Origin: Nymphaea colorata
Lineage: Eukaryota; Streptophyta; Magnoliopsida; Nymphaeales; Nymphaeaceae
Assembly (NCBI RefSeq): GCF_008831285.2
Contig: NC_045141.1
Location: forward strand, 22,474,742 to 22,538,741
Length of the DNA: 64,000 nucleotides
Reading direction: 5' to 3'
The notes under the pieces were generated by a model that ran no database searches, was not told the DNA's origin, and was given only the letters and a program-made list of their open reading frames with translations. This document shows positions 4,029 to 46,000 of this stretch, piece after piece. How positions within the stretch are numbered: position 1 is the stretch's first letter; each line of letters opens with the position of its first letter. The position numbers and the translations under genes are program-made.

Positions 4029-4635
4029 CTAATCATATAACCTCACATTAAGTCTTCCGAGCCATATAGAATGAAACAAGATATGCATGACATCAAACCT
4101 CTTGGGAGGGTCATTGATCACAAAGTGCTTCTGAACCTTCATAACATTTGCTTGCAACTTCAAGTATGAATGTTCAGGAATGTTAATCAAAATCTCGTTA
4201 AGTTCGGGTATCTTTTGAACTGGAATTTGAACTGACAATCTAAAACATCATTGAAGGGGAGCACATAGCCATCTAAAATCGGCACCGGCACACAACCAGC
4301 TAGTATGGATTCAGTGAGCCCGGGAATGGCGACTTCATACCCACTTGGGTAGAGGAAGTACTTGGTGTTCATCATGTGCTCCTTGTAGCTTTGGCCTCTT
4401 GGCAGGCATTGAAAGATTTGAATTTGGGGGTCCTTGCCATCCCACTGTTCGAAGAGGAACTTTTTCACGGAGCCAGGGTTGCCTCTTGCAAAAAATGCTA
4501 ACACCCTTTTTGAGGAAGGTGGAGTTGCGGTTCTGACGGCTCTTGGGAGACAAAACCTGAAGTAGAATTCTAGGAGTGGCACATCTTTTCTTGGATTGAA
4601 GCCTTCTAAGATGTTGGCACTGCACAACACCCTGA
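4029..4635 (-). pseudogene. Exostosin-family glycosyltransferase (GT47), 3' part, frameshifted
   Basis: The minus-strand frame from about 4635 reads IRVLCSANILEGFNPRKDVP, then LAFFARGNPG, SYKEHMMNTKYFLYPSGYEV and AGCVPVPILDGYVLPFNDVL. These are hallmarks of the C-terminal half of plant exostosin-like GT47 enzymes, type II Golgi membrane proteins that transfer sugars in cell-wall or glycan synthesis. At about 4237 the frame breaks: after FNDVLD the reading continues one frame over as SVQIPVQKIPELNEIL, VQKHFVINDPPKRFDVMH and WLGRLNVRLYD, then a stop at 4029. Restoring the family's usual tryptophan after VLD needs one base, so a 1-bp deletion is the likely lesion. The N-terminal half of such a gene lies about 10.5 kb upstream on the same strand at 15112-16249. 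Confidence 0.85.
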
Positions 4636-4756
4636 TCAAACTTTACAGTGACATACGGTGCCTAAACATGACCAGAAAGAGCCCAATTCATATTGATATC
4701 GACTTGGTAAATCAAGATATATAAAATGTATTCAAGATAATAAGTTCAACATGCAC

Positions 4757-8469: not shown

Positions 8470-8884
8470 TAAACGATAAGGTTAAAAGATTACGATTTTA
8501 GAGATATTTAAGGAAAGAATCCCTACAAGATCAATCAAAATTAATGATAAAGGAAAAAAAAAAATCTTTTCACAAAAATCAGATTTAGTTTTTCATGTTT
8601 ATCGATAAGGTTGAAAGGCAATCATTCTAGAGAAATTCAAGGAAAGAATCCTAGCAAGATCAATCAAAATTAATAATAAAGGAAAAAAAATCTTTCCATA
8701 AAAATCAGATTTAATTTTCCATGTTTATCATTGCCAAGATTATCAGAACTTCAACTATTTAAGCTCATTCTATGGATTGCGCAACGGCTCATGGTGGCCT
8801 TCCATGGTGAAAAACCATGCACATTTAATGAAAAGAATCTTTTCGCTGCTGGTTTTTATTTGTTTTGCTTCTTTTTTATTTTTC
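8470..8884 (+). mobile_element. TRIM-like LTR fragments, partial unit plus near-full unit
   Basis: Two successive copies of the same LTR-like sequence start at about 8470 (aacgataaggtt, about 130 bp, truncated) and about 8600 (to about 8884). They share blocks such as ggaaagaatcc, gatcaatcaaaattaat and ccttccatggtgaaaaacc with the element at 18164-19143. No primer binding site follows this copy. Confidence 0.7.
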
Positions 8885-10450: not shown

Positions 10451-11110
10451 ATGGAATCCACCAAAGACAGCTGAGGGACTTCTCGGGGTACAATCTGTCA
10501 TATGTTTTACATTGTTGCTGATTAGAAAAGAACGGGATCTCATTTTGTCCTTAACTTTCTCTCCATCTCCCATGCCTCAGCATCTCCCTCCTGCAAAAGA
10601 ACGAGATCTCCTTTTGTCCTTTAACTTTCTCTCCATCTCCTATGCCTCAGCATTTCCCTCCTAGTGGTGATTGGAGGCATAGGAGATGGGGAGAAAGTTA
10701 AGGACAAAAGGAGATCTCGTTCTTTTCTAATCAGCAACAATGTAAAACATAAGACAATTATACGCCGAGAACACCCTCAGCTGTCTTTGATGGATTGTCT
10801 GCACCATGTTGAAGTCGAGCACCAAAGGCAGCTGAAGGAGTTCTCTGGATACAATCTGTCATATGTTTTACATTGTTGGTGATTAGAAAAGAACGAGATC
10901 TCCTTTTGTCCTTAACTTTCTCTCCATCTCTCTCATATGTTTTACATTGTTGGTGATTAGAAAAGAACGAGATCTCCTTTTGTCCTTAACTTTCTCTCCA
11001 TCTCTCATGCCTCAGCATCTCCTTCTGCTGGTGATTGGAGGCATGGGAGATGGAGAGAAAGTTAAGGACAAAAGGAGATCTCGTTTTTTTCTAATCAGCA
11101 ACAATGTAAA
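10450..11110. repeat. Nested foldback array
   Basis: A block of about 50 bp built on aacgagatctccttttgtcc followed by ttaactttctctccatctc occurs at least six times. Forward copies lie at about 10520-10575, 10588-10645, 10885-10930 and 10960-11010. Reverse copies lie at about 10675-10735 and 11040-11095. Copies are joined by catcagcaacaatgtaaaac-type linkers, so the region can fold into several alternative hairpins. No protein is supported. Confidence 0.8.
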
Positions 11111-11279
11111 ACATAAGACAGATTATACCCCGAGAACTCCCTCAGCTGTCTTTGGTGGATTGTCTGCACCATGTTGAAGTCCAGCCTAGCCAACTCATGT
11201 TGCACTTGGCATCTGCACTCTGTCCTCTCGAATGTCTCTATATTCTCATCAACCTCCGCCCAGCAAACCCTTCTCTAAA

Positions 11280-12499: not shown

Positions 12500-13163
12500 A
12501 TACTTAAATATAATTAATCATAATAAAATATATATCATTATAAAAATAAAAATAGGGCATAGTGCCTATCTAAATCAGACTAAACCTAGGAAGCAGATTA
12601 ATCCAGGGTTTTGCTAAAGTTGGATCCTTATATATAATACATGTATTTATTCTGCTCTTTTCTTTTGCTGCTTCTAGTCTTAAGCTGTTAAACAATTCTG
12701 ACTCATCATAAAAATTAAAATGTTTGTGCGGTTAATGGAGATTTTTGAAGGATAAAAACAATGCAGATAGTGATATAAGATTGAGGTCACAAAGAGCAAT
12801 AGATAAATCTAGCAACACAGCATTGGACATGTCAAAAATATGTTTGACTGTTCATCAAGTATGATGTTACTTTTGGTGCCATGTCCTGCCTACACAGGAT
12901 ACAGTTGGCAAGTGACAATAAGATATGGATCAAAATTGACTTATACAGTGTTTCCAAAATGTGATTCTTTAGGTTCTTTTAGGTCGATCCATTTTGTTTA
13001 CCTTATATCTGCTATTCTAATATATTGCAAAGTTAAGAACCAGGATAGTTTGAGCTCCTGATTGTACAAATTTACTATCATGAAAAAACCAAGGTCTCTA
13101 GACAGGAACCTGCTTTTGCTGAACTCATACTTGTAAGAAAAAGTTTTTCCAATTTGTATGCAG
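12111..13163. other. Unassigned DNA with TA microsatellite
   Basis: Holds a GC-edged repeat at about 12360-12450 and a TA-rich simple repeat at about 12449-12500. No gene is supported before the superoxide dismutase remnant. Confidence 0.5.
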
Positions 13164-13581
13164 GCATGGAACCACAATTTTTTCCGGGAATCTATATGAA
13201 GCCTGGAGGAGGAGGAGTACCTACTGGGATTCTTCTGGAATTGATTGAAAGAGATTTTGGCTCATTTGATGCATTTGTGCGAGAATTTAAGGCTGCAGCA
13301 ACTACACAGTTTGGTTCTGGTTGGCCTTGGTTGTCCTGTAAGTACCATATATCGTTGCCGTTCTATGTGTATCTTGTATTATTGTTGACAGAGTTGCACA
13401 AAATTTACTGCCTGTAGGATAGCTTACTGCCAGTATCTTCCTTCTTCTTCCAGATAAGGCAAACAGACTTGCAGTGGGGAATGCAGTGAATCCTCTCCCT
13501 ACAGAGAAAGATAACAAGCTAGTGATTTCAAAAAGTCCCAATGCAGTGAACCACCTTGTTTGCGATTACTGGGTACTCTGA
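13164..13581 (+). pseudogene. FSD: Iron superoxide dismutase (FSD), two-exon remnant
   Basis: Exon A (about 13164-13337) follows a tgtatgcag acceptor. It begins in one frame as WNHNFFRES and then, after an extra dinucleotide near 13193-13197 (tctatatgaag instead of the expected tctatgaag), continues in another frame as [26 protein letters not shown] and [14 protein letters not shown]. It ends at a GTAAGT donor. Exon B (13454-13572) reads YKANRLAVGNAVNPLPTEKD and KSPNAVNHLVCDYW, with the tyrosine codon correctly split across the intron. A stop (13579-13581) follows at once where the family continues with the metal-binding DVWEHAYY region, which is absent. The N-terminal exons are also missing. 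Intact Fe-SODs dismutate superoxide in chloroplasts. This copy cannot encode one. Confidence 0.85.
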
Positions 13582-14782
13582 GCTTGTTTTACATCCTTTC
13601 TTTGAAGATGTGATATCCTGTGGAAGGTTTTGGACCCATAACTTGAAGGACGCGAGCAGATAAGATGGCCTGATTCTAGTGAAGCGATACACACGCAAGG
13701 GCGACAACTTAAAGCTATGAGCTCAAGGACTGAAGGCATCCCTCCTCATATTCGACGTCAGCAACACTATCAATGGTGAAGGTGCATTTCAGCGTTAACA
13801 GGATAACCAAAAAGCTTCCAAAAAAGATCGTACACTAATGACAATTTCAGATCAGAAGCAGAAAATCAGGAATAACTCATTACAAACCTGTTTTGGTACA
13901 TTCCACACAAAGGGGACATTGCACCTCTCGTTTATCGAACCCAGTGCATACGGAAGCATCATGAAACCCTTTAGTGTCCAACACGTCAGTGAAATCCAAG
14001 GCGTGCACATCTGGCGGCTTTTCACGTTAACAAGCTGCTCATTTCAGGTATTAGTTCTCTATTATTTGCTATCAACGAACTAAAAAGAAAGATAGCATAT
14101 GACTAATTGATCAAGTTGAATATCATAAAAACCGTATCCATCTGACGAAACAAGCACTTAGGAATGTGCAAGGGGTGGGAAAAAGACAAAGACATAATTC
14201 TTTTTTCTCTTTTTTTCATGGGAGCATTGTTACATCAAAAAATTACAATGCATTGTTCAGATATTCACATATTCAGATTCAACAATGAACAAAGAAAAGT
14301 TATATCCAAATCGAAGTCCAATTTCACTATCCAAATATGATCCTAATCTGATTTTTGCATTCATGTCCGAATCCAAATTTTGAACCGAGACTAGCTCTTT
14401 TCAAAATATAAGAGCATTGAATATGTGATAGTTATTTAAAACTAAATCATATTCAAATCTGAATCCGAATTCGAATCCAATAGGGTATTCATATATATCC
14501 AAATCTAAATCTGAATACAATTGGATGTCATTTCTTATGTCCAAATTTCATCCAACATCTTAATCGGATATTAAATTCTTTTTTCTACATCATATTTTTT
14601 TGAGAACATTTTGATATGATATCCAATCCAAAGAGGATATATTAACATTGGTATCTAGTTGACCGTGTACCATGAGATCACCCAAATCCCAAAGCTAGCC
14701 TGTACATTAGAGCAGAAGAAATAGGGGAGGCCTTAGGTTCTTCAGTTGGCTTCCACTAAATAGTTTCCAAATTAAGATTTCT
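13582..14782. other. Unassigned DNA downstream of the FSD remnant
   Basis: No product recognised. The stretch 14270-14560 is rich in repeated short blocks such as tccgaatccaaatt and caaatctgaatccg, as in degenerate tandem repeats. An open frame at 13838-14083 has no identifiable similarity. Confidence 0.45.
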
Positions 14783-18163: not shown

Positions 18164-19143
18164 TGTTAACGATAAGGTTGAAAGACAACTGTTTTAGAGA
18201 TATTTAAGGAAAGAATCCCCGCAAGATCAATCAAAATTAATGACAAAGGAAAAAGAAAATCTTTCCACAAAAATCAGATTTAGTTTCACATGTTTATCGT
18301 TGTCAAAATTATAGTGTTAACAATAAGGTTGAAAGACAACCGTTTTAGAGAAAATCAAGGAAAGAATCCCAGAAAAATCAATCAAAATTAATGATAAAAG
18401 AAAAAGAAAATCTTTCCACAAAAATCGGATTTAATTTTCCATGTTTATCGTTGCAAAGATTATAGGAACTTCAACTATTTAAACTCATTTTATGCATTGT
18501 ATAACCAAAGCTCATAGTGGCCTTCCATGGTGAAAAACCATGCACGTTTAGTGAAAAAAATCTTTTCATTGTTGTTTTTATTTCTTTTGTTTCTTCTTTA
18601 TTTTTTAACTTGGTATTAGAGCAAGATGCTTGATGAAGAACATCGAAGCCCATAGGTGGCCTGCAGACGACCAAATACATCATTGTCTTCTTCACCAACT
18701 CAATTTTGTGAAGAAAATCTTGAGGAATCAAACTTGGGTTTTCTAAATCGCTGCCAAAGCACGATCTACCTTCACAAAAAACTTCATGAAGCAAATTTTG
18801 GGCTCGACGAATCACTGTCAAAGAAATGGCATGATAACATTTTACAAAGTTCTGCAGCAAACTTGGACTTTTAGATTCATCGTCCAGTTTAAGAAATGAT
18901 GTTAACGATAAGATTGAAAGACAACCATTCTAGAGAGATTCAAGGAAAGAATCCCAACAAAATCAATCAAAATTAATGATAAAGGAAAAAGAAAATTTTT
19001 CCACAAAAATCAGATTTAGTTTTCTATGTTTATTGTTGCTAAGATTATAAGAACTTCAACTCTTTAAGATTGTTCTATGCATTATGTAACCAAGGTTCAT
19101 GGTGGTCTTTCATAGTGAAAAATCTTGCATGTTTAGTGAAAAG
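18164..19143 (+). mobile_element. TRIM-like miniature LTR retrotransposon
   Basis: A left LTR-like unit (about 18315-18610, starting tgttaacaataagg) is followed directly by tggtattagagc at 18611-18622. This is one mismatch from the plant initiator-methionine tRNA primer binding site tggtatcagagc used by Copia-type elements. An internal region of only about 290 bp follows, without gag or pol. A second LTR-like unit starts at 18900 (tgttaacgataag) and stops at about 19143, missing its last part. An extra half LTR (18164-18314) precedes the left LTR. This structure defines a non-autonomous TRIM; the element is old and incomplete. Confidence 0.7.
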
Positions 19144-19350
19144 ACAATAAATCCACCTTTACAATCCACCATTTGACTGTTGGGAAATTGCATTTATTGA
19201 ACGTCACAGACTTGCTATTCACAAGTCGTGACCATGCGTCCTGTTGATCCATATTCCTGGACGATGAGTAGATAATGATTATCGAAGAGTTAAGAAATAA
19301 AAAATGCAGTTGGAAAACCAAATGCCTCTTCATACAAAAACATAACAAGT
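19144..19350. other. Unassigned DNA between the TRIM-like element and the tandem duplication
   Basis: No gene or repeat recognised. Confidence 0.4.
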
Positions 19351-20399
19351 ACAGTACTGATTTCCTAGAAACCTCAATTGGATTTCTCTAGGAAATAAGA
19401 AAGAGAAACAGATAGCTACCTTGTAAAAGATTAGTCTATTAGGTTTATTGATGATAAAGAGACTGTAGATAGCAGCCATGAGCTTAACTTGAAAACGAAT
19501 GGAAAGTCAATCAACTTATCAAGTCAACGATGTAAGAATTTTCATGCATGCCAAGGATTAAATAAAGAAGAAATGTCAAAGCACATAGTAGAAGCAAGTC
19601 TAACCACTCAATTTTTTCTATATCCAGCATAACTGGAGATGACATGTTGAAAGCTCTATGGATATTCAAAACACTCAAGTATGTGTTATCTTTGCATGTC
19701 ACTCTTATGATATGCAGAGAACAAAAGAACAAATGGTAGTTCCATTTTTTGAACCACCTTCATATCACATTAACAAAGTGTCAAGTATTGTTGACATCGG
19801 CCTGGATCAGGCTCTAGCCATCCTACAAGCCTATGCCATGGCCGAACCCGAGGCCTGTTCATCAAGATTTGAACCCAAGTCCAGCTAGACTCGATTCAAT
19901 TTTAATGAAGAAAATAAAATATTCGTGTTTAATATAGAAATATAGTATTTGTAAATAAAAATGAATAAAAAATATAAATATAATTTCATATTATATATGT
20001 TATTAGGGCCTAGGCTCAGCCAACCATACTCTACCTCAAGAAGTTCAATTCATATACTTATCTTTAATATAATATGGTATTCATGGATCGTGCGCATTTG
20101 TTCTTTCATGCCTCTAAATTTAGAGTTGAAACTCTTATCTGCTAAAATCCACTTTGTTTGCATTGTTTAGTTTCAATATCCTTTCGATTTGACAGCAAAT
20201 ATGGTCATTTAAATATCTTTAGTTGTCTAAATTTTCAATGCATTCTCCATTATGACTTGTAATGAAAGGCTAGCAATCAAATAAATCAATACAAACCACT
20301 GCAGTTGTTATTCACATTTTTGCTAAATTAGAATCCAGAGTTTGTTCAAATGGAGACACTGCAATATCCAGCAGTTGTAAAGCAAACAGTAAAGCCAGT
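19351..20399 (+). repeat. Tandem duplication, unit 1 (1,049 bp)
   Basis: The unit starts acagtactgatttc and ends gtaaagccagt. It is followed head-to-tail by unit 2 with only a handful of visible base differences. It contains a GC-edged motif region (about 19795-20040) of the dispersed family seen at 7.1 and 12.4 kb. No convincing gene is inside. Confidence 0.95.
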
Positions 20400-21448
20400 A
20401 CAGTACTGATTTCGTAGAAACCTCAATTGGATTTCTCTAGGAAATAAGAAAGAGAAACAGATAGCTACCTTGTAAAAGATTAGTCTATTAGGTTTATTGA
20501 TGATAAAGAGACTGTAGATAGCAGCCATGAGCTTAACTTGAAAACGAATGGAAAGTCAATCAACTTATCAAGTCAACGATGTAAGAATTTTCATGCATGC
20601 CAAGGATTAAATAAAGAAGAAATGTCAAAGCACATAGTAGAAGCAAGTCTAACCACTCAATTTTTTCTATATCCAGCATAACTGGAGATGACATGTTGAA
20701 AGTTCTATGGATATTCAAAACACTCAAGTATGTATTATCTTTGCATGTCACTCTTATGATATGTAGAGAACAAAAGAACAAATGGTAGTTCCATTTTTTG
20801 AACCACCTTCATATCACATTAACAAAGTGTCAAGTATTGTTGACATCGGCCTGGATCAGGCTCTAGCCATCCTACAAGCCTATGCCATGGCCGAACCCGA
20901 GGCCTGTTCATCAAGATCTGAACCCAAGTCCAGCTAGACTCGATTCAATTTTAGTGAAGAAAATAAAATATTCATGTTTAATATAGAAATACAGTATTTG
21001 TAAATAAAAATGAATAAAAAATATAAATATAATTTCATATTATATATGTTATTAGGGCCTAGGCTCAGCCAACCATACTCTACCTCAAGAAGTTCAATTC
21101 ATATACTTATCTTTAATATAATATGGTATTCATGGATCGTGCGCATTTGTTCTTTCATGCCTCTAAATTTAGAGTTGAAACTCTTATCTGCTAAAATCCA
21201 CTTTGTTTGCATTGTTTAGTTTCAATATCCTTTCGATTTGACAGCAAATATGGTCATTTAAATATCTTTAGTTGTCTAAATTTTCAATGCATTCTCCATT
21301 ATGACTTGTAATGAAAGGCTAGCAATCAAATAAATCAATACAAACCACTGCAGTTGTTATTCACATTTTTGCTAAATTAGAATCCAGAGTTTGTTCAAAT
21401 GGAGACACTGCAATATCCAGCAGTTGTAAAGCAAACAGTAAAGCCCAG
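20400..21448 (+). repeat. Tandem duplication, unit 2 (1,049 bp)
   Basis: Second head-to-tail copy, offset by exactly 1,049 bases at the start. Differences seen include c/g at about 20414, c/t at about 20702 and t/c at about 20916. The few substitutions mean the duplication is recent. Confidence 0.95.
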
Positions 21449-21662
21449 TACCAGTAAGCATTCTCATGGCATTCTGCGATAAAAAAATGTAATCATGATG
21501 TAATAGAAAATGGTGATTTTCATGGGCACTACTCCTATATACTATAAACTCCTATATACTATAAACTGTAGATGTGCAGTACTCTAATTGACGAGTGTCT
21601 CGTTTTTTATCCAAGTCTCACACCATAAATGCAATGGCTAGCTGTTTTGATTTCAACCCAGT

Positions 21663-22292
21663 GATGACTAGAACTCTCTCGCTCAGCAACTTGTATTTGG
21701 GTCAATCTAGATGGAACTTTACCGAAAAAAAAAACTTGCGAGAAGGTCTCGTGTCCTCGATGCTGCATTCTAAAATTTTTTACCGAAGTAACCCTGAGTC
21801 TCGTGAATCATCGATCCCCTCGTCGACTCGGTCGCAGTGGGCCCAGCGGTATGCTCGCGTCTCGGTTTAAGTCTTCCACTCAGTAATGGATTAATCAAGG
21901 AAAATTGATTATATAAATACCTCTAGCCCTTTTTCTACTGTTTTGATCGGCAACAGAGAAACCCATCTCCACCCCCCCCACCCAAAAAAAAACGAACAAG
22001 AAAAAAAGAAGGGAGAGGAAAATAAGTTAGCTTCGGCTCTGAGAATTGTTCTGGCGATCTCTTTCTCATTGGATTTTGCTTTTCTCATTCCTAGCTGCAG
22101 ATTTGTTTTGGAAGGAATTGATCGGATCGTTTCTGTCGACGATATGTTAGTTTTGTTTTGATTCTTTTATTGCTCCTCGAGATTGGGGTTTTGGATGGTG
22201 GATTACGGTCTCTGAATTCCTTTCTGTCCTGCGTATTTGTTCAGTTGGAAAATGCGCAGTTGATCGACGTTGATCGACGAGCTGGTTGAGGT
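21663..22292 (+). repeat. Large inverted repeat, left arm (promoter-like, rightward)
   Basis: About 630 bp that recurs as reverse complement at 22410-23027. In the plus-strand sense it contains TATATAAATA at 21910-21919, then an apparent 5' leader (agggagaggaaaataagtta), then exon-like sequence ending gacgagctggttgag before gtgcgtgag. By eye roughly nine in ten bases agree between arms, with small indels. The right arm preserves a short exon-like frame, LENAEVIDELVE, between an acceptor-like and a donor-like site. I do not recognise the parent gene. Confidence 0.9.
21910..21919 (+). promoter_or_regulatory. TATA box in left arm
   Basis: TATATAAATA lies upstream of the leader-like part of the left arm. 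An identical box occurs in the right arm on the other strand. Confidence 0.6.
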
Positions 22293-22409
22293 GCGTGAGC
22301 TGCCAAGTACAGCTTGACTTGGCTAGGCTGGACATGGTGCAAACAATCCACCAAAGATGGAAAATAAACCCTAAAGAAGTCGCAATCCCAAGACAAATCA
22401 ATAAAAGAA
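22293..22409. other. Loop of the large inverted repeat
   Basis: About 117 bp separating the arms. Read on the minus strand it contains gatttgtcttgggattgcg and then tttggtggattgtttgcacc, followed by tccagcctagccaagtcaag. The last two blocks recur in altered form near 10790 and 11150. Confidence 0.7.
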
Positions 22410-23027
22410 GATCGCGCACCTCAACCAGCTCGTCGATCACCTCCGCATTCTCCAACTGAACAAATCCGCAGCACAGAAAGGAAATCAGAGACCGTAATCC
22501 ACCGTCCAAAACCCCGCTCTCCAGCAGATATAAAAGAATCGAAACAAAACTAACATATCGTCGACAGAAGCGATCCGATCGATTCCTTCAAAAAAAAATC
22601 TTCAACGAGGAATGAGAAAAGCGAAATCCAATGAGAAAGAGATCGGCTGAACAATTCTCAGAGCCGAAGCTAACTTATTTTCCTCTCTCTTCTTTTTTTC
22701 TTGTTCTTTTTTTATGGGGGGGGAACGGGTTTCTCTTCTACCGATCAAAACGGTAGAAAAAGGGCTAGAGGTATTTATATAATCAATTTTCCTGGATTAA
22801 TCGATTACTAATTGGAAGACTTAAGCCGAGACGCTTGTGTACCGGTGGGCCCACTGAGACCGAGTCAACGAGGGGATCGATGACTCGCGAGACTCGGGGC
22901 TATTTCGGTAAAAAATTTTAGAATGCAGCATCGAGGACACGAGACCTTGTCGCGGGATTTTTTTTTTTGGGTAAAGTTCCATGACCCAGATACAAGCTGC
23001 TGAGCGAGAGAGTTCTAGTCATCATCT
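22410..23027 (-). repeat. Large inverted repeat, right arm (promoter-like, leftward)
   Basis: Reverse complement of the left arm. On the minus strand it has TATATAAATA at 22772-22781, the same leader-like sequence, and the exon-like frame LENAEVIDELVE ending at a gtgcgc donor-like site near 22420. Transcription from this box would run toward the loop and through the left arm. Confidence 0.9.
22772..22781 (-). promoter_or_regulatory. TATA box in right arm
   Basis: TATATAAATA on the minus strand, in the position mirroring 21910-21919. Confidence 0.6.
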
Positions 23028-25681
23028 GGCATACAATGCGGCCTCAGAACCCATTTCAGGGATTGGATCTTTACACGTCTTTGCCAACTCTAGTTGGTTG
23101 GGTCGCAGAGTTGGATGGACCCGGAATGGAAGACTGTATAATGAATATGGATTTGACTAATAATCAGATAAATTCGGTTCATTGACTTTCAAAGGCCATA
23201 TCAGGCTAATTCAAGATCTAAATCTGAGATGCAAAGTTTGGATCTTATTTTCAGTTTGGATCCAGGTAATGTCCAGTGAAGCAGAGGTATTTGTTCTGAA
23301 ATGTATGTTATGATATTGGAGCCAACAAAATAAAGATTTGAGTGTGTCATACTTGTCCGAGCTCTTCTATATAAGGCATCAATCTGGTCTTATCCAATAC
23401 CAAAATCAACCTAATTAACTGAGTCATGTTTCGCGGCCTAGTAGACTTAGGGCCATACTTCAACTTAGTCATGTTTGCCACCATTTGCAACCTAAGTAAC
23501 ACATTTGTGCATGACATCGAACACGAGATTGGAACCTTAGATCCCTTCAAAGTGTAAGCCGCTTTGCCACCCGGTTGCGCTACACCCGTTGAGGCGATTA
23601 AAGTATTAAACTAATTATTTAACTTTTAATGTTCAGAAAAAAACAGTCTTACATGCATACATTCATAGATACCATTTTATAAACATATGTGGACATCAAG
23701 CCTGGGCCCAGATCTGTTTTCTCTCTCTCTCTCTCGTCTTCTCAAACTTGTTTTGTCAAATCCGATAGCTTGACCAACCAAGCTTCAATATCTCAAATGG
23801 CAGACGTTGAAGCACTAACCTAATGATCATCGCATCAACAAGCTAAGTCCTTGTTGAGAAAGAAGGAAAGCTTCATCACTTGGGTCCCCTGTAAAACGAA
23901 GATAGATATGCCTTGCTGGGAGGCACCCCTTTCTGGTGTCACCATGGATCACAATAATAGAGAGGAAGAGAGAGAGAGGAATGGAGTTGGGGGTCCTTTT
24001 CTGCGAATACTTAGGGTGGGGAGTATGTGAAAGTGGGAAGGAAGAGGCAAGCAAGAAAGTGAAGCAGCACCACCATTTTCTTCCTTCTCCACTAGCCGCT
24101 ATACACCAGGCATTACGCATCATTTCCAAGGAAAAGAGACAGAGAGAGAGAGAGAAAGAAAGATAGATCTGGGGAAAGCGCAGGTGCACGCGACTGACTA
24201 ATTACGTGTTCAATATTGAGTTACTACTCAAAAATGAGTCTTAGGAGAAAAGAATGCAAACGATGGGAAATTAAAGATCTTTGATTACAAGCTTAATTCA
24301 GCGATTGTAGAAGGAGTTTAGTCAGAGTGATCAACGGAGTTAATATGCAAACCCAGCTCGTTAGTTCATTGACACAAATGGTCGAGCCTTCGACAAGATC
24401 AAAGAAGCAATAGCATCATGTTGAGATCTAATTTAACCTTGAAAGTCTTTAAGTCCAACCTCCCTTGGCTAGGAAACAGGATAAATATTAGTGCGCACTA
24501 GTTTCCCAGAAATGTACTTTCTTCCAGCTCATGATCGGTTTGGCTCGACTCCGCTCCTTTTCCGGCCAACTAGGCGATAAAATTATCAATGTGGACATCA
24601 GCAATGGACAGCGGAGCAAAAGTGGATGTAAAGGGAATTATTCCTCAATCTCATTGCTCTTGTTGTACCGCACATGTAGCTTAGCTCTCTCTCTCTCTCT
24701 CTCTTTCTCTTTATATATATATAATGCCATGATCATTACCTGCTGATGAAAGAACGATCATAGGAGTGCAAAAGTGAATTAAGTGCAAGGAAATTTTTGT
24801 CTTCCGGTCACTCGCTGCTTCATCATAAAAGAATCCTTTTGTTCACACCTGCAACTTGCAAACAATTCAATCTACCGTGGTCGGCTTAGAAAAGCCAAAT
24901 AGGAAGAGAACCACTTAATTTCGAGTTATGATGCTGAAGCATTTCTATTAGTTCCTGAAGCGAGATGTTCCAAGGCGCTCCATCCCTTCGTTCTGTGTTT
25001 TTTGCTTCTCAGGTTGCCCTTGACTCAAAGCTGCGTTGAAAGGTGTGATTTGGAAGATCCTTAGTAAAATGAATCTTAAATCCACATTACATGTAAAAAT
25101 CAGATTTGACGGGGTGGGTCCGACCTCAAAGCTGCAGATCAGATCACTCATATATCAAATCCGCTGTAAAACAAACACACCTCAATCTAGGTTTATAAAT
25201 CCAATGTTTGATTACAGTGGGCTGTAGATTTCATATCAGTCTCAGATTTCACACCCTCCGAGACTTGACTGGAATATCAGACTCTTCATCTTCAACTTGA
25301 AGTGTTCTTTATTGTTACCATGCACAGCATGCGCCGGACTCCTGCCACTTGGTTTAGACACTCATCATCAGTTACTTTGACGACAGTTGATAGAATTATT
25401 TGACAGAGAAAAGTAAAAGTGTAAAAGAAACATGCATTCAAATTGGAAATTAACGCATTTCTGAGCCGCCTTCAGCTGCTCTACTTTACGTTAAGATCCT
25501 ATGGAACATTCTTACTTCCCCAGAAATTACATTTAAGTAATAAGCATGGCAATGTTCCAATCTGGACTCATTACAAGAAGCACAACGGCAAACACAGAAT
25601 TGCAGCTTTAAGTATACAGACTGATATATACCACATAGCAGAAAACCTGCGAAGATTTTTTGATGTCATCTTCTGTGGGAA
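23028..25681. other. Intergenic DNA
   Basis: No gene supported. GA/CT-rich simple sequence lies at about 23722-23735, 23957-23975, 24137-24155 and 24684-24704. Open frames over these are low complexity. Confidence 0.5.
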
Positions 25682-33969: not shown

Positions 33970-34052
33970 CACGAAAGCCTTCCTGTTAAAACCCTGGGAG
34001 GGGGCTTCATTCCTCCCTTGTTCCGGGGCCTCCTTTCTGGTTCGCTTCTAAA

Positions 34053-37000
34053 ATGGGAAGGAAACGGCAACAGCACGAAGACGGCGACCCAGAAACCCTA
34101 GGAACCGCTGAGGGGAAGGAGATGGAGTCTGCGAAGGCGAAGAAGAAGGAGAAGGGACAGAGGAAGGCCGAGAACGGCGGAGGATTGGAGATGGACGGAG
34201 AAGTAGGTCGCCTTCCGGACGCTGAACCGCAATCGATTGGGACGTTTCAAGAGAATGGCCATGGGTCCAAGAAGAAGAGGAAGAAACGGGATAAATCTTT
34301 GAAGGAGAACTGTTTGCACGGAGTGGAGGAAGCCGGTGAGGGATGTTCTGATAGGGAGGGGGAAGCTGTGCGGGTTTCCGAAAACGGTGGCTCAGGGAAG
34401 GTTCGACCTGGGAAGAAAAAGCAGAAGAAGTTGGCGAAAGAAGGGGCTACGGTGGAGTTTGAATCGAATGGAGTGGTGAAGGCCGAGGAAACGGATAAGT
34501 GGAATGAAGGCGATTATGCGGACGTGAGGAGGATGAAGAAGAAGAAAGGGAAAGAAGAGAATGGAACAGTGGAGTCGGCATTAGTTGGAAAACCAGATGA
34601 GAATTTGACGAAGCTGGAGAAAAAATGCAATGGAGTGGTAAAAGCGCAAAACAATTATGAGAGTGGAACTAAGGGCAACGGCGTTGAAAAAACTGGAGTG
34701 GAGAAGGGAGATGAGCGGGACTTTAAGGAGAAGGTAGTGACTGTTTCTGGGAACGACGTCGAATTGCCGAAGTATACGGCGTTTAAGTCATTTGTGGACT
34801 CGGGATTGCCTCGCGAGGTTCTTCATTGTTGCATGACATTCAGCAAGCCTTCGCCCATCCAGTCAAGGGCGTGGCCTTTTCTCTTGGACGGCCGGGATTT
34901 CATTGGAATCGCAGCAACTGGTTCAGGTTGTTTTTATTCACTTTTTTCCACGTCCGTTATGCTTGCCATTTGGATAATTAAAATCAAACTGAAGTCATTA
35001 CCCGTGCAACTTCCAGAATAGGCATATTACGTGGAGCCAGTCCTACATCACTTTCAAATTCTTTTCAGTGCTCTTTACAAATGAGCTCAACATTCATCTA
35101 ATTTCATGTACAACGTTGGTTCACACGGAGCCATGTTTTTACTTCTACTCGTATTGTCTAGTTCAGCTTACTGTGTGCAATCATTGCAGGTAAAACCTTA
35201 GCATTTGGTGTTCCAGCTTTGATGCATATTCTGCAGAAGGTCAACAGCAAGCAAGGCCGGAAAAGGTTGCCTCTTTGTCTTGTCCTTTCACCTACAAGGG
35301 AGCTTGCTCAACAAGTATGTCGTCCCTCCTCTTCTTTCTTCCCTTATGGTTTATGCTCATGATCGTTTTGGCTATCTTGTATCTTGATTTCACGAGAGGA
35401 TTCCACACACACAAACTTTTGTGGACCTGTGTGCAATATGTAGCTTTTATAAATTTGTTGGAAATTTTGTGGTGGCCAGTAGTGTCTTTCCATCAATTTT
35501 TAATTGTCCAGAAAATCTGATATGGTTTCATTGGGTTTGCTTTCTATTACTGCAAGATGATGGTTAAAAGTTAAAACTTCAACTACTAGACTAGATTGCT
35601 GACATATTATCAATCCAGTTGTTATTTTCACCTTGCTTGGACCTTATTTCCATTAATTGTGTTTTTCCTTCTGTTTGGTGCATTACAGATTGCTGATGTC
35701 CTATCAGATTCTGGAAGACCATGTGGCTTGAAGACAGTTTGTTTGTATGGCGGAACTTCTAAAGAAAAGCAAATATCTTCCTTGAAGTCTGGCATTGTAA
35801 GTCATTTGCTCCACCTATTTTGTTATGCTTTAAATGCATGGTCATACTAAGATTGGGATGGGTTCGTACTTGGTAAGCTTATCTAGAGTTTGGCACAATG
35901 AGCATGAAAATGATGGATTAGCATTGGCTAAAGGTAGTTCAAAATTTCAAATTGAGCTTGATTAGGCCTGACCTAAAAAGAAAATGAGTTAGGTAATGGC
36001 ATAATGGAAACAGACTCTGTTATTTGTGTCGTTCTGCTTGTGTTTATAAGCTTATGCTGCACTGGCCATGTCATCTGTGTTCAGTTCTAAAAACTACTGA
36101 ATTGATGAGTTCATATGGATAAATATTGAAATTTTTATATGGTTACCTTTTTTTTCTACGTTAGTTGTATTTGACCATTTTCTAAATTGACAACTTTCTT
36201 ATCTTCAGTTTGAAATCATGCCTTTTGTTAGGAAGTGTTTTTCTTGGTTTCTCTTAATCATATGTAGCATTTTATTTTTTCCCCCCACATGTACAAGGGT
36301 TATGGCAGAGACTGCTCTCCAGCAGCATGCATTTTTTTTGTTTATTTACTGAATCTCGGTCATAATTTTAGGATATTGTTGTTGGGACTCCAGGAAGATT
36401 AAAAGATTTGATTGAAATGGGCATTTGCTGCCTCAAGGAGGTCTCTTTTGTAGTGAGTACACCACCTTCTGAGCTCTTCATTTTTTTTTATGCTTTTAGT
36501 TAAAGTTCAGACTATTTCAATCATTTCTGCATGTGTTCTTTTTTTTTTTTAAAGTTTCAGATTTACCATTTCAATGTGCAGGGACAGTCCTTGTAGATAT
36601 CTGCTTTTCTGGAGTGTAGTTGAGAAGAAATGGTTGAATGAATAGGTTTAGTTTGTGTTTCTTTCCATGTGTTCTACTTTTGTTAGGATTCAGTTCTGTA
36701 CGTTTTCAGCATAAGGAGAAACTTTTTTATTCTTGAAGTAACTCATATGCTAGCAAAGGAGTTATTTTTGAAGATTTACTGTCAATGGTGAGTCCAAATT
36801 CCATGGCATAGGAGTTACTCAATGGTAACTTTTTTGCCAATGTCCAAAAAAATTGAAATGGTTTTCCTTTGGCAGCGAATTTTTTTGATGTTTAGATTTT
36901 TATGGTAAAGCCTTATAGTATGTCAAGAGGAATGGTTATCAAAAGTTCATAGAAGGTGCAATGATGTTTTTCTCGTTAATCTGAGCTTCAGATAATCTGA

Positions 37001-39070
37001 AGACAACAAAATATATCCATTCATTGCAAAACAACTGCTGAGCACCTTCTCTCTCCTTCACAGACACACACAATAGGTCGCTGTTTCGGTTTCTTTTCTA
37101 GCAGACTCCTTGTATAGGTCATCAATGATCACACATGCTGAAGCTCTCTCACCTAGGCTTGAACTCGGGTCATGTGAGCCCTAATGACATCCCATAAAGT
37201 TATAAACTGCTATTTTGTCATCCCTTTTTCCTTCTTAGAGCTTTCTTACTACTGACAAAAAGAAATTCGGAAGTTTGTAGAGGGTGCAATGATGTTTTTC
37301 TCGTTAACCTGAGATTCAGATACTCTGAAGACACCAGCATATCCATTCATTTCAAAACAGCTGCTGAGCACTCTCTCTTTCTTTCTTTCCTTCTTTCTCT
37401 CTCTCTCTCTCTCTCTCTCTTTCTGACAGAGGCCTTTGGTTTTCGTGCATTGCTTTGGTGAAAACATTGGCCACACAGTAACTATGGTGCCAATTTTTTG
37501 TATGGTATGAATCCTGAATTTTGAGAATGGTCTCTACTTGGTTTTTGACTGCAGATAATTACTTTTTTCTTTTCTAATTGGTGTTTACTTTAAAGATCTT
37601 CGTAGTTCGTAATATTCTATATCTCTCTTCTGCTTGATTTTGTTGTCAACTTCCTTTGAACCATGTTTAACTTTTGCTGCTAAAAGATTCTTTCCCAGTT
37701 TGAACCATGTTTAACTTTTGCTGCTAAAAGATTCTTTCCCAGAATATTCATTAGTGAGGTTTTGAGTCTTGACTAGGCATTCAGACCTGCCAAGCCTGAA
37801 TCCTTTATAGGTTTGACCTCTGCTGACGCAATGAACGGGGGCAATCTTCCTATGCATTTAAAGAGGCTGGATGGAGCTGAAAGTACATGACTCAAGTTTG
37901 AGCGGAGCTGGGCCATCTCAAACTCAGCTCAATTCTTAATGGGGACAACTTGAGTTTGACTTGAATTAACTTGAGCTTGAGGAGGCTCAAACTCGGTTCA
38001 GTTAAATTCGAGCTGAGATTTGGCTTGAGCTTAACCAAGCCGTTTATTAAAAAAATTTATTTTTTAACGTCAATGGAGACAACCAGATATGAACCTGGCC
38101 CTTGTTAGCCACCGGGAAACCATTGTAATACTTGCTTTTTTGTGATGATATTATGAATCACCTTCTACATATTCACTTTCTGTGCCTGCCTAGCTTGAGC
38201 TTAACTTGTTTACTTAAACGAGTCCATAGCTCAAACTCTACTGATTAATAAACGAATTGAGCTTGAGTTACTCGACTCAATGAACTGCCCTAGCTGAAAG
38301 CAGTAACTTGGACCTCAGTTAGAAACTTAAAACATCCTGTACCATTGATGGGTGTGAAGTATTCACAGAAAATGCATTCTTTTTGAAAAAAAAAACGCGA
38401 AAAAATGCGATAAATTAACTGGCCATTTTAAACTAAAAAAACATTTAAAATGAAAAATATGTTTTTTTATTTTTATTTTTTTCATTTTTTTTTCACTTTT
38501 TTCATTTTTTCACTTTTTGATGCCGAAGGGTATTTATAAGTTCTTATTGAGCATTTCCCTCATTTTGAATTCTTTAGTGTAATGTTATGTCCAAGCAAAT
38601 TTCTTGAATCAAACTTATAAATATGCACATAATCATGGACATGCTTTTTCTTTCCAGGAAACTAACTCCTTGCTGTGTGTGAGCAGTTGTGATAAACTGG
38701 TGGTTGACGTGTCTGAAGTTATTCACTTCCTGTAGGTTCTAGATGAAGCAGATCGAATGCTTGATATGGGATTCGAACCTGAAGTGCGTGCTATTGTGAG
38801 CCAGACAAATTCCAGTATGTGCTACTACTATGACTGATAGATTGTGCTTGTTTATTGCATTATGGTTCATCTTTCAAATGTTGAACCTCTACAAGTATTT
38901 TTTGAGTTGTTTCCCATTTTTGACTTTGTTGTCAATCTAGGGACTAGTTGGCCGAGTAGTAGACCTGGTTGGTGTCCAGCAGACTGATCTAGTCTAGCAT
39001 GGTTCATGACCAGATGAATGATTAGTATGTTTATGTGTCTTTTCTTTTTCGTTGGTACCTCTCCATCTCC

Positions 39071-39124
<54 letters not shown>

Positions 39125-41784
39125 TACATAAAGTTACCAGACTAACTAGCTAATTATGTCTTTTTGTCTTCATTATTAATCTTTCCCTCTCTCTTTTTCT
39201 ATAAATATATTTATTATTTGGACTACCAGTCTTGACTAGTCCCTTTTAGACCTTGATGAACCTGTGCTGCCTTCTTACTTTGACAGTTAGATCTTTAATG
39301 TAGCTTGTGAATACTATCATTTTTTGCAGAACGGCAGACCGTTATGTTTAGTGCCACATGGCCTCTTGCTGTTCACCAGTTAGCCCAAGAATTTATGGAC
39401 CCAAACCCCGTGAAGGTGTAGTTTTGATACTGTCGATATTGAATCACCTGAGTGCTCACCTCACTCCCCTTCTTTTCCTCATTCTGGACTGCATAAATGC
39501 TAAGAAAATCTGCTATTTCCAGGTTGTTGTGGGTTCTGAGGATTTGGCTGCAAACCATGATGTGATGCAAATAGTGGAGGTATATTGTGATGATAAATTG
39601 GGTTTGCTATTCAGCTAATTCCTAAACTTTGTTAGTACATCTTAATTTATTATCAAACAGGTTTTGGACGATCGATCACGTGATGCACGTTTAGTTGCCT
39701 TGCTTGAAAAGTATCACCAGTCCCAGAGGTATTTGTTGTCATATGTAGATGTCAAAAACATATGCTTCTTTGAATGAATTATACTGGTTCTAGCATGATG
39801 CCAGAAAATTTATCGGAGTTTGTTAGATGATCTAGCTTGGAGGCTCTGTCCCGTCTTCATCTTGGTATGACTTTAGAAACAAAACCTTAATAGATATAGG
39901 AGATCAAGAGAATTTTATACTACAGTGTGCCTGATGTTGCAGGATGACCTTAACAATCCATGGCTAAAAGTACCTTGCTTTGCTGTGAAAAACATCATGA
40001 ACTGCTTCTGCACCATAAACCATCACTACTGCTTATTTGATGGCTGTTTTTTAGTGACAGACTAACTCTCTACAAAATTATATCTGGTCTACCAAGATGG
40101 ATTTATTTATTCTTTCAGAAAGATTTTTTTTTTCCTGAGCTTTTACTATATAAGGCATGTGAATGGAGTTGTTCATGCTTCAGAACGCTGAATTATTTGC
40201 TGAGAGAGTTTGTGTACATTGTTTCACCATTTGCCTGTCCATTTTTATAATCATCTCTAGTATTTCCCATTAGATCATTTAAACAAATCGTTGTCCAATC
40301 TCGAAAATCCTTAGCTATGGGACTATTGTTTGCTGATATTAGGTTCTTGACAGGAACAGGGTTTTGGTATTTGTGCTGTACAAGAAGGAAGCTTCTCGAG
40401 TTGAAATCATGCTTCAGAAAAGGTGCCATTTATGTAGTGTTTTATTCTATGTTTTGTTCATTTTATACCATTTTGAAGAACATGATATGCTGTTTTATCT
40501 TAGATAACTACTTAATAGCTGGATATTTTATTTAATATTGTTACATTGTATTTTGACGGTGCTAACTATTGTAACTGGGGTATGGTTGATCTGTAGGGGT
40601 TGGAAAGTAGTCTCTGTGCACGGTGACAAAGCTCAGGCTCAACGAACAAACGCACTCTCTCTCTTCAAGGAGGGAAAATGCCCTCTAATGGTGAGAACTT
40701 ATTATATAAGTAATGTTTATTTTTATGAAGGTTTCTGTTGTCATTCCTTGTATATAAAAGCAAAATGATGTCCAAGTGCCATGGATGCTACTACACCACT
40801 TATGTCCAAGTACCTGTGTCGATATGGGCAGCTATGGAACAATGGTGCTTGGACATAAGTGGGATGTGGCGGATCAGTTTATGCAGGCCCAAATTTAGTC
40901 AGTAATTTTAGTGAAAAATCAAATCCTTAAATATATTTTTGAGTCTACAAAATTTGGATATAGTTTTGTGTACATACTGCATAGGCACACACGAGCATGT
41001 ACACATGTATACGTATGTAGTAGATACGTACAAAATTTTTCAAGTTCCCTTCCTAGGATTAGTGAGTGCTAGGGTGGAGATAATGGTCAGCTTGTCTGTA
41101 CTTTTGCAAACTGTCTTGGTGTTAACCAACTTTTGTGCACCTGGTTTTATGCAGATTGCTACTGATGTGGCTTCTAGAGGGTTAGATATTCCAAATGTTG
41201 AGGTTGTAATAAACTACAGCTTTCCTCTTACCACGGAGGACTATGTCCACAGGATAGGTAGGACAGGGCGAGCTGGAAAGAAGGGTGTTGCGCACACTTT
41301 CTTTACGCAGGAAAATAAGGTATGAAGCTGCTACCATGGTGTTTTGCGGGTAGTAGGTGGAGCGAGCGAGTTTAATATCATTGTTTCTCCAAGTAGGGTC
41401 TCTGAAATGCATTTTTCGAGACTACCATTACTGTTTCCTCCATTGCAATTATTCTTGAAATTGTCCACAATATGGAAAAAATGTGACGCTGCTCTCCCTC
41501 CTTGCAGGGGCTTGCTGGTGAGCTTGTCAATGTACTAAGAGAAGCTGGGCAAGTTATACCACAAGCGCTGCTGAAGTTTGGCACACACGTCAAAAAAAAG
41601 GTACTCATTGAGAGAGTTTTGCTTGACCGGAGTGGGCTGCAACCGTGTTCTGTTGGTCGTTGTAATTCGTTCGTTGGGTTTCTTGCAGGAATCGAAGTTA
41701 TATGGTGCACACTTCAAGGAGGTTGCGGCTGATGCCCCCAAAGCTACTAAAATCACATTCAATGATTCCGATGAGGACTCATGA
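34053..41784 (+). CDS. RH5: DEAD-box ATP-dependent RNA helicase (RH5 / STRS1 type)
   Basis: Thirteen exons join to 664 codons plus stop: 34053-34926, 35190-35314, 35689-35796, 36372-36452, 38736-38814, 39330-39415, 39523-39579, 39661-39728, 40354-40422, 40597-40690, 41155-41319, 41508-41600, 41689-41784. All introns are GT-AG and phases close. Motifs by residue: Q motif FSKPSPIQ (263-270), ATGSGKT (about 288-294), SPTRELAQQ (325-333), TPGR (375-378), DEAD (399-402), SAT (430-432), [11 protein letters not shown] (549-559) and [10 protein letters not shown] (579-588). The end [20 protein letters not shown] followed by an acidic tail is the RH5 signature; Arabidopsis RH5 is STRS1 and the yeast relative Dbp3 acts in rRNA processing. 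The first about 240 residues are a lysine/glutamate-rich, low-complexity extension (nuclear/nucleolar type), making this protein longer than the roughly 510-540 residues I recall for the family. The start is the first ATG after a stop-containing leader. Confidence 0.93.
36934..37385. repeat. Duplicated block in RH5 intron 4
   Basis: Two direct copies of about 120 bp (about 36940-37065 and 37268-37385) share gggtgcaatgatgtttttct-like sequence, atatccattcat and caactgctgagca-type ends, with several substitutions. A CT-rich microsatellite follows at about 37377-37422. Confidence 0.75.
37655..37742. repeat. 44-bp tandem duplication in RH5 intron 4
   Basis: Two consecutive copies start tttgaaccatgtttaac and end gattctttcccag. 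They appear identical. Confidence 0.9.
39072..39127. repeat. CT/AC compound microsatellite in RH5 intron 5
   Basis: A long CT run followed by ACACAC. Confidence 0.9.
40793..40866. repeat. Small inverted repeat in RH5 intron 10
   Basis: ccacttatgtccaagtacc is mirrored as ggtgcttggacataagtggg about 40 bp later. The unit is a short hairpin with no coding role. Confidence 0.75.
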
Positions 41785-43054: not shown

Positions 43055-46000
43055 ATGGAGACACTACTAAATTCTTCCTTCCTTCCACCTTACTCTCCTC
43101 CTGGACAGCACCCACTTCCTTACTTCTTCCCTCCGCTCCCCAAATCCCTAAAACCCTTAAAACCCAGAAACGACAGGAACACGAGTCTCTTTGCTTCGGT
43201 ACCCAGTGTCTCTGCAAACTGGACTCTGAGTGATGGAAATTCGAGGAAAACCTTTAGAAGAAACCTCCGGAAGAAGCCTCTATCGGACGATGACGCCCGG
43301 CGTATAATAAAGGAGCGGGCAAGATACCTAAGCGTGCTGCGGAGGAACCAGGGGTCCCAAGCACAGGCACCTAAATGGATCAGGAGGACGCCGGAGCAGA
43401 TGGCTCAGCTGTTAAAGGACGACAGGGACGGCCACATCTACGGGAAGCACGTCGTCGCGGCAATCAAGACGGTGCGAGGATTGTCGACGAGGCCGGAGGG
43501 GTCGTACGACATGAGGCAAGTTATGAGCTCGTTCATCACGAAGCTGACGTTCAGGGAGATGTGCATCGTCTTGAAGGAGCAGAGAGGTTGGAGGCAGGCG
43601 AGGGATTTCTTTTGGTGGATGAAATTGCAGGTGGGTGGTGAGTCTCTCTCTCTCTCTCTCTTTTTCACACACACGTGTTTTCTCCATGGGCTTGTATTGG
43701 TATATTTATCTGCTCTCCTAGCCAAGTTTTCCTTTTTTTGAAATTAAAAATAGTGCGGTTTGGCAGACCTCTACCTGCATATTAATTTGTAACAGATGCT
43801 ACACATCACGGGAAAATGAGGATGCCATTCTGGTGGTTTTCCTCCCATTTCCTTTGACTGTACAAAGGAGACAAAGCATACAAGTTTTATAGAATTTCCA
43901 CCAGTAGGGCTAATAGAACTGGCTCCTCGCCTACTTGTATTCTGATAAAACCCAAGAAAATCTTCACCGTGAGGTTTAGTGAGTTGATGACACTCATCTA
44001 TCTGTTTCCATGTACTTGTGGGCTTTTCCTATCGCGCCTATTTTTTCTTGGAAATGTAAGAACGGCCTGTTAATGGTTAGAGCCGATCGAAGGTGGATAT
44101 TTACCAATGGGTTTGAAAACCATTGGTTAAGAATCTGGACACCTAGGAGGTAAGGGGGATAGTAAACGAAAGCAGTCAAAAGGGATACGAGTTTGTTCAT
44201 ATTTTTATAAGGATGGAAGACAGGTATTTAAAATTCTCCAAAATTTTATTGGCGCAGTATTGCATATTTTAGAGGTTCCTACCTATGTACTCAAGTTGGG
44301 TTGCTGCTGTTTTAATTCTCTTTGCTTACACTGAAATTCATAGGTTTCTAACCGATGAAGTTGGCTCATGAGTATGTGCACAAGTAATTACTTACTAATG
44401 TCTGTCCTCTGAATGTCTTGAAATATCTACTTCTAATTTGATGTATTGCGTGTTGCACTCACAGCTCTGTTATAGACCTAGTGTTATTGCCTACACTCTC
44501 CTTTTACGGGTCTATGGACAAGCAGGGAAGATTAGTCTTGCTGAGGACACTTTTTTGGAGATGATAGAAGTTGGTTGTGAACCAGATGAAGTTGCTTGTG
44601 GCACTATGCTTTGTACATATGCTAGATGGGGCCGCCATAAAGCTATGCTGTCATTTTATTCTGCTGTTTGTGAACGGGGCATTCTTCCATCCATTGCAGT
44701 ATTAAATTTTATGATCTCTTCTCTGCAGAAAAAATCATTGCATGAGGAAGTTCTAAGAATGTGGGAGCAAATAATAGAATTAGCAGTCACTCCCAATCAT
44801 TTCACATATACAATTGCAATAAATTCATATGCAAGAAAAGGGCTACTGGAGGAAGCTTTATGTACACTAAGGAGAATGAAAAATTCGGGACTTGTTCCTG
44901 AGGAATTAACGTACAGTCTTCTTATAAGCTTGTGTTTGAAACTAAATCAACAAGCTAATGCTGTAGAGCTGTATGAAGATATGAAATCCCAAGGTGTTAC
45001 TCCTAGTAACTACATGTATGCTTCAATGTTGTCTCTTTACCAAAAGGAAGGTGAATATACAAAAGCTCTTGCACTCTTCTCAGAGATGGCAAGAAATAAG
45101 ATTGCTGCTGATGAAGTCATCTATGGCATTATGATCAGGATATATGGAAAACTTGGACTTTACATGGAAGCAGAAAGTACTTTTAAAGAGGTTGAGCAGT
45201 TGGGACTTCTTAATGAGGAAAAAACATATGTAGCAATGGTTCAAGTCCGCCTCAATGCAGGTAAATATGATATGGCCTTAAGCCTTTTGGAGCAGATGCA
45301 ATCTAGAAACATTCCCTTTTCCATGTTTGCATACAGCACCCTTCTTCATTGTCATGTTTGTAAGGAAGATGTGGCGGCTGCTGAAAGTACGTTCCAGGTT
45401 ATGTCCAAGATGGGTACACCTGATTCTTCTGCTTGTAATGACTTGCTTAGTTTGTATGTAAAATTGGGTTTACTCAAAAAGGCTAAGGCTTTCATACTTA
45501 ATCTGAAAAACAAAAAGATAAAGTTTGATATGCCCTTGTACAGGACTGTCATCAAAGTATATGGTAAAGAAGGGTTGGTAAATCAAGCTGAGGAACTCGT
45601 GAATGAGATGCAAAGTTACGGACTAGAATTGGATGATTTCACAAAAACTTCTTTGGTTCGCATGTATGGAGAATCTGGGAAAATGATTGAAGCAGAAAAT
45701 ACTTTTAAGGCCTTGGAAAAACCTGATGCTGTGGCTCTCAGTTTAATGCTTCAGCTGCACTTGGGAAATGGTGATGATATTAAAATCAATGGCTTCCTGA
45801 CATCTCTCTTGGAGACTTCTGGTGGCCTGGAAGCTGCAAGCCATCTGATACGAAAATTTGTTAAATCAGGCAAGTTCTTGGGCTTTCTGTTCATGAGAAG
45901 CGTACATGTTGGTTAAACTTGTGTACTTGTTCAGCCAACTATGCTTTCCTAGCCATTGACAGGGATCCTTTGTGGTGTGCAGGTGAGATAAATAAGGCTG

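Follow-up and report, generated by a model that had tools for sequence, protein, structure and literature searches.

An inverted copy of a lipid-kinase-like promoter and leader in Nymphaea colorata and its possible history of self-silencing

Natural gene silencing and new miRNA genes have both been proposed to originate from inverted gene duplications. The available part of PMC3203196 describes PAI1-PAI4 as a natural siRNA-making inverted repeat at which methylation is coextensive with the shared sequence. MIR163 arose through an inverted duplication that captured part of the promoter of its founder (PMC5388894, in the portion available), and at VIM4-VIM2 of Cvi-0, read-through RNA gives rise to siRNAs that act both in cis and in trans (PMC13213937, likewise in part). 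Hairpin transgenes also methylate themselves, an outcome that is prevented when C is changed to T in the sense arm, according to the excerpted text of PMC9263138. Here, we describe an inverted repeat in a window of 64,000 nucleotides (the whole stretch of DNA that was analysed) on contig C4 of Nymphaea colorata. With its parent gene located, its decay one-sided, and its promoters lying inside the arms, the locus bears on the question of whether such a repeat silences itself, its parent, or nothing.

The inverted repeat is real. Local alignment of the left arm with the reverse complement of the right gives 563 matches, 55 mismatches, and 29 gap columns (91.1% identity ungapped, 87.0% with gap columns), in agreement with a preliminary description of this DNA that reported arms of about 620 bp, roughly 90% alike. 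The two arms have 183 12-mers in common, against at most 0 between the left arm and 200 random window stretches of equal length, with stretches taken from the locus itself set to 0. The loop given in that description is present but measures 107 bp rather than about 117. The components are listed below.

21658..22301, plus strand: left arm, made up of about 65 bp of C4-derived flank (21654-21721) and then the C9 promoter, leader, and first intron bases
22409..23029, minus strand: right arm, delimited by its pairing with the left one and including outer C4-derived flank (22982-23021)
22353..22972, minus strand: right copy of the C9 promoter and leader, corresponding to C9:21568341-21568974 at 90.9%
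22302..22408, no strand: loop, asymmetric, made up of right-copy intron sequence and a filler of about 60 bp
22298..22357, minus strand: loop filler; a repeat at 11149-11214 is related to it (82% over 66 columns)

The right copy reaches about 50 bp deeper into the intron than the left copy, and by eye there is a TCTTT microhomology where the filler meets the right copy. The relative of the filler comes from the edge of a cluster at 10455-11185 in which copies of a sequence with CACCAAAGACAGCTGAGG are nested, in both direct and inverted orientation (the inverted pairs are 74-124 bp long and 93-96% identical). A further repeat family occupies 8470-8883 and 18164-19142, with a 97-bp piece that has five copies in the window, 80-88% identical to the reference copy. 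A tandem duplication at 19348-20405 and 20397-21456 (period 1049 bp; 99.06% over 1060 columns, with 8 mismatches and 2 gaps) ends 200 bp to the left of the inverted repeat and is either very recent or a duplication of the assembly.

A search of the genome (407.8 Mb in 783 contigs) with the left arm returned at least four places. Besides the two arms themselves, these are C9:21568419-21568961 and, on C4, a 61-bp end match. Among the matches listed, the 543-bp match on C9 is the sole other long one beyond the arms. It covers the promoter and 5' leader of a minus-strand gene that appears kinase-like, and on this basis the arms are read as ectopic promoter and leader sequence copied from a C9 lipid-kinase-like gene. 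The following C9 exon reads MQKHGSLKRNVNPLRIFSRHSG, and the parent open reading frame begins MQKHGSLKRN.... Three of the five downstream C9 frames scanned match Pfam DAGK_cat, one of them above the cut-off (E 1.9e-6, 27.9 bits vs 23.6) and two below it (E 0.007 and 0.017); the remaining two, the MQKH exon among them, gave no DAGK_cat match. The downstream exons read like plant LCBK1, which we take to be the sphingoid (long-chain) base kinase. The alignment and the C9 match thus bear out the proposal that the 5' end of a gene was duplicated in inverted orientation with its promoters facing in, and the homologous gene elsewhere in the genome, for which a search had been suggested, is located on C9. 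A second gene of this kind lies on C10, with 64% identity over the first coding exon. It gave no match to either arm with E below 0.1 and is unusable as an outgroup, so changes in the arms are polarised only by the majority of three sequences.

The promoter boxes and the putative splice donors of the leader lie in the arms as follows, the latter placed by eye.

21910..21919, plus strand: TATATAAATA box of the left arm; the C9 gene has the same box
22772..22781, minus strand: TATATAAATA box of the right arm, facing the loop
22291..22292, plus strand: GT of the putative donor of the left arm (GTTGAG/GTGCGT)
22418..22419, minus strand: GT of the putative donor of the right arm (GTTGAG/GTGCGC)

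Each arm therefore carries the same box pointed toward the loop, as first described. The box sits in a run of 41 columns identical between the arms, the second longest such run, and 1963 of 5000 column shuffles contain one that long. The longest, of 45 columns, lies upstream of the box and was reached in 1221 and 1268 of 5000 shuffles in two runs. Special conservation of the TATA box is rejected, as the identical run is no better than chance; because shuffles often reach equal runs, both arms keeping the box is what about 90% identity gives. The stretch previously called an exon-like end is indeed derived from a gene, although it is better described, partly by eye, as the 5' leader and exon-intron junction of the lipid-kinase-like gene. 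The LENAEVIDELVE stretch of the arms is probably leader, since the right-arm open frame has no methionine ahead of it and the C9 splice at ACTTTATAG/AACGTG (by eye) would leave LENAEVIDELVE in a different frame from the kinase start. In the C10 gene, again by eye, a stretch that translates as VIDELLQ... stands ahead of the start codon and resembles the LENAEVIDELVE of the arm; a frame running into the start codon there leaves some room for a coding extension. A Pfam scan of the right-arm open frame (22147-22587, minus strand) gave no match. As far as the sequence can be read, a hairpin would carry leader rather than an identified coding exon.

Outside the right arm, the locus continues into sequence that is shared with other sites.

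22982..23418, plus strand: right flank, shared with C4:22805947-22806435 (86-87% overall with gaps)

Over 23062-23418, the flank differs from this relative at 10 of 357 ungapped columns (2.8%). The relative lies 300 kb away and is without the kinase fragment, and 23062-23422 is also found at C9:19.75 Mb and C4:21.46 Mb. Low-copy 23062-23600 is a local hub of copied segments on C4, with pieces recurring at C4:21.46, 21.48, 22.81, and 23.08 Mb and at C9:19.75 Mb. Because the junction with the C4 flank is the same in both arms, a single insertion before the inversion is indicated, and the order of events would be insertion, then inverted duplication together with about 60 bp of flank, then loss of 32 bp on the right. 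Divergence between the arms is 8.9% (55/618) or 10.9% (61/558), and 9.7% (52/535) without a C/A-rich low-complexity tract whose alignment is doubtful. The right arm is 7.8% and the left arm 11.3% from C9 (7.3% and 9.9% without the tract). A flank at 2.8% and arms at 9-11% do not fit a simple history; the mismatch could be accounted for if the arms decayed faster, if C9 is under constraint, or if the flank was copied later.

The decay of the arms is one-sided. Across 558 common columns, 36 changes are private to the left arm, 18 to the right arm, and 21 to C9, while 7 sites differ in all three. With polarity taken from the majority of three, which is rough, C>T plus G>A changes stand against the reverse at 18:1 in the left arm and 7:1 in the right (jointly 25 vs 2) and at 5:9 in C9, whose reverse class may include deamination predating the inversion. 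The right flank, taken over four copies, totals 5:15 (0:1, 0:5, 5:2, and 0:7). The arms differ from C9 (Fisher p 0.0002) and from this low-copy flank family (p 2e-6). The tests were repeated without the C/A-rich tract on account of its alignment, leaving 29 private changes in the left arm (16:1), 17 in the right (6:1), and 18 in C9 (5:9), with the arms at 22 vs 2 and p 0.0005. A faster overall rate in the left arm was rejected, as 36 vs 18 (p 0.02) became 29 vs 17 (p 0.10) without the tract.

By sequence context, private C>T changes in the left arm fall at 11 of 80 CG, 2 of 49 CHG, and 5 of 125 CHH sites; the corresponding counts are 2, 3, and 2 in the right arm and 1 (of 80), 0, and 4 in C9. 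Non-CG changes number 7, 5, and 4 of 174 in the left arm, right arm, and C9. Of the contrasts in rate between the arms, only this CG difference, 11 vs 2, is left, with p 0.022, uncorrected for multiple tests. Among 43 CpGs of C9, 10 are TG or CA in the left arm with CG kept in the right, 1 shows the opposite, 4 are changed in both, and 22 are CG throughout. The observed/expected CpG ratio is 1.48 for the C9 5' end, 1.14 for the left arm, and 1.32 for the right. C>T changes outnumber G>A changes, with counts of 18 vs 7 over both arms (p 0.027) and 13 vs 5 in the left arm alone (p 0.059), although the numbers are small. An excess of C>T is common in silent plant DNA, and the general mutation bias of plants favours C>T. 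We read the excess as pointing to past cytosine methylation of the arms, stronger on the left. The weakness of this reading is that the footprint is mainly CG and in one arm, with 2 CG changes on the right vs 11 on the left. RNA-directed methylation marks non-CG sites too. Symmetric self-silencing fits poorly because the right arm has far fewer CG changes than the left. C9, for its part, has retained its CpGs, which makes lasting silencing of the parent in the germline, and with it a trans effect over evolutionary time, unlikely.

The locus has what a hairpin RNA would require. Folding 21900-22790, a check proposed in the preliminary description, gives -602.6 kcal/mol vs -226.2 +/- 8.1 in 20 shuffles, a low energy that is expected for any such inverted repeat. 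That description envisaged a self-complementary RNA of over 1 kb, which is too long: the parts of the promoters upstream of both starts never share one RNA, and the stem would be about 340 bp. For a plus-strand RNA running from about 30 nt past the left box (21940-22760), the predicted fold contains 337 pairs, including 11 G-U pairs; its longest Watson-Crick run is 39 and its energy is -540.2 kcal/mol. The minus-strand RNA is about equally stable (-544.0 kcal/mol). Perfect 21-mers to C9 number 12 on the promoter side and 49 on the leader side among 624 in the left arm, and 36 and 119 among 652 in the right. This stem and these 21-mers supply what dicing, and targeting of the C9 leader, would need. 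As at PAI, genic sequence is present here as a long inverted duplication, and a homologous gene lies at another locus. siRNA production from such a hairpin is plausible. An Rfam search of the window at gathering scores returned 0 matches, where a young miRNA would not be expected in any case, and a tRNA scan of the window found none.

With moderate confidence, we regard the locus as a decaying, formerly methylated inverted duplication of the C9 kinase-like promoter and leader, born of repair and silenced by itself. A stretch of about 635 bp of the LCBK1-like C9 gene, comprising the core promoter, 5' leader, and first intron bases, would have been copied as DNA into C4, at a target site that already carried the low-copy flank sequence. 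Homology with C9 spans promoter to intron and stops at both breakpoints. The kinase stretch and about 60 bp of flank would then have been duplicated in inverted orientation, with unequal inner breakpoints and a dispersed-repeat filler of about 60 bp added, as may happen in template-switching or end-joining repair. Leftover transcription from either inward promoter could have produced a foldback RNA with a stem of about 340 bp, and this RNA, or pairing of the repeats, may have drawn cytosine methylation to the arms as at PAI1-PAI4. Self-silencing would be the expected end, since the promoters sit inside the target; once the promoters were shut off, the arms would decay by deamination. As the evidence stands, this is a well-dissected but ordinary rearrangement.

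Other explanations differ mainly in what they make of the C>T excess and of the hairpin. The palindrome may be inert, an accident that was never transcribed and whose excess is the ordinary mutation bias of methylated intergenic DNA. The left-arm changes are mostly CG (11/18), the arms are unequal, and the box bears no sign of constraint, all of which would fit; the adjoining low-copy flank family has no such excess (5:15), although it is short and of other composition, and we consider an inert palindrome possible but doubtful. It is unlikely that the locus is an active hairpin-siRNA or young miRNA locus, whose foldback would be diced to 21-24-nt RNAs that lower the C9 kinase gene in trans by leader cleavage or promoter methylation. 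The perfect 21-mers to the C9 promoter and leader, Watson-Crick stem runs of up to 39 bp, and the precedents of MIR163 (PMC5388894), PAI1-PAI4 (PMC3203196), and VIM4-VIM2 (PMC13213937), each as described in the parts available, speak for such activity. Set against these are a box that is not preferentially conserved, a C9 5' end without CpG decay, and a promoter that is itself part of the self-targeted arms; the PAI repeat, in the available text of PMC3203196, is transcribed from a promoter outside it. A more speculative variant, to which we give little credence, has the promoter-leader hairpin acting on the unlinked kinase gene, with C>T changes in the left arm making U-G pairs such that the DNA repeat is broken and escapes self-methylation while the RNA still folds. 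The left arm has 13 sense-strand C>T changes, in the same direction as the G:U hairpin design of PMC9263138 (seen in excerpt), of which this would be a natural version.

Origins other than copying and repair can be weighed as well. A remnant of a homeologous kinase gene from whole-genome duplication, later inverted, would draw on another low-copy stretch shared between C4 and C9 (C9:19.75 Mb) and on a weak match (70% in 284 columns) between window 14372-14649 and a C9 stretch some 2.3 kb upstream of the kinase copy; this match is either a repeat or a trace of collinearity. The genes neighbouring the locus in the window include the following.

4187-4642, minus strand: GT47 exostosin-like gene
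13049-13417, plus strand: Fe/Mn superoxide dismutase exon
33990-41325, plus strand: DEAD-box helicase exons, the N-terminal one below cut-off
44399-48955, plus strand: PPR protein gene

When the 64-kb window was compared with the 220 kb surrounding the C9 gene, just the arms and the 14372-14649 match came up at the thresholds used; the superoxide dismutase, helicase, PPR, and other frames of the window had no match in those 220 kb. The PPR gene has no close second copy and is uninformative on homeology. The lack of collinear neighbour genes, together with the only other match of the first coding exon lying on C10 and not C4, makes a homeologous remnant highly unlikely. Mutator elements typically have long terminal repeats whose promoters face inward, and the long inverted ends seen here, with their inward promoters, recall a Mutator-like or foldback DNA transposon. 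This is disfavoured mainly by copy number: among the matches listed from the left-arm search there are only the two arms, C9, and the 61-bp end match, only the arms share both ends, and the C9 copy, which stands alone at the 5' end of a gene, is not palindromic. No target-site duplication of 5-12 bp was found near the ends (1 mismatch allowed at 8-9 bp, 2 at 10-12 bp), which is weak evidence as 157 of 300 random place pairs give a chance match and about half give none; overall, a transposon is very improbable. Least credible is a fold-back chimera of the assembly. The nearby 1049-bp tandem copy at 99% calls for care in this region but lends no direct support, and a fold-back is disfavoured because the arms have diverged (55 mismatches and 29 gap columns), the loop lacks symmetry, and the inner breakpoints of the two copies differ.

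Compared with described systems, the inverted duplication on C4 resembles in outline PAI1-PAI4 of Arabidopsis, which is likewise an inverted gene duplication with a possible foldback RNA and homologous single genes elsewhere (PMC3203196, in the part available). The same text gives PAI1-PAI4 as a tail-to-tail repeat of two genes that is read from an outside heterologous promoter, whereas the C4 locus has promoter and leader only, promoters inside the arms, and arms that are 9-11% apart. Mutator-like elements share the long inverted ends and inward promoters, but same-ended copies, in a count that is a lower bound, and target-site duplications were not found here. MIR163, as far as the excerpt of PMC5388894 goes, is also an inverted gene duplication that includes part of the founder promoter; it differs in making a defined miRNA, while the part duplicated on C4 is promoter and leader. 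At VIM4-VIM2, related gene 5' ends are inverted around a short non-palindromic middle, much as on C4 (PMC13213937, in part). There, the available text describes two head-to-head genes in a repeat of about 6.4 kb, whereas the 5' ends of the C4 locus point inward and the gene body is gone.
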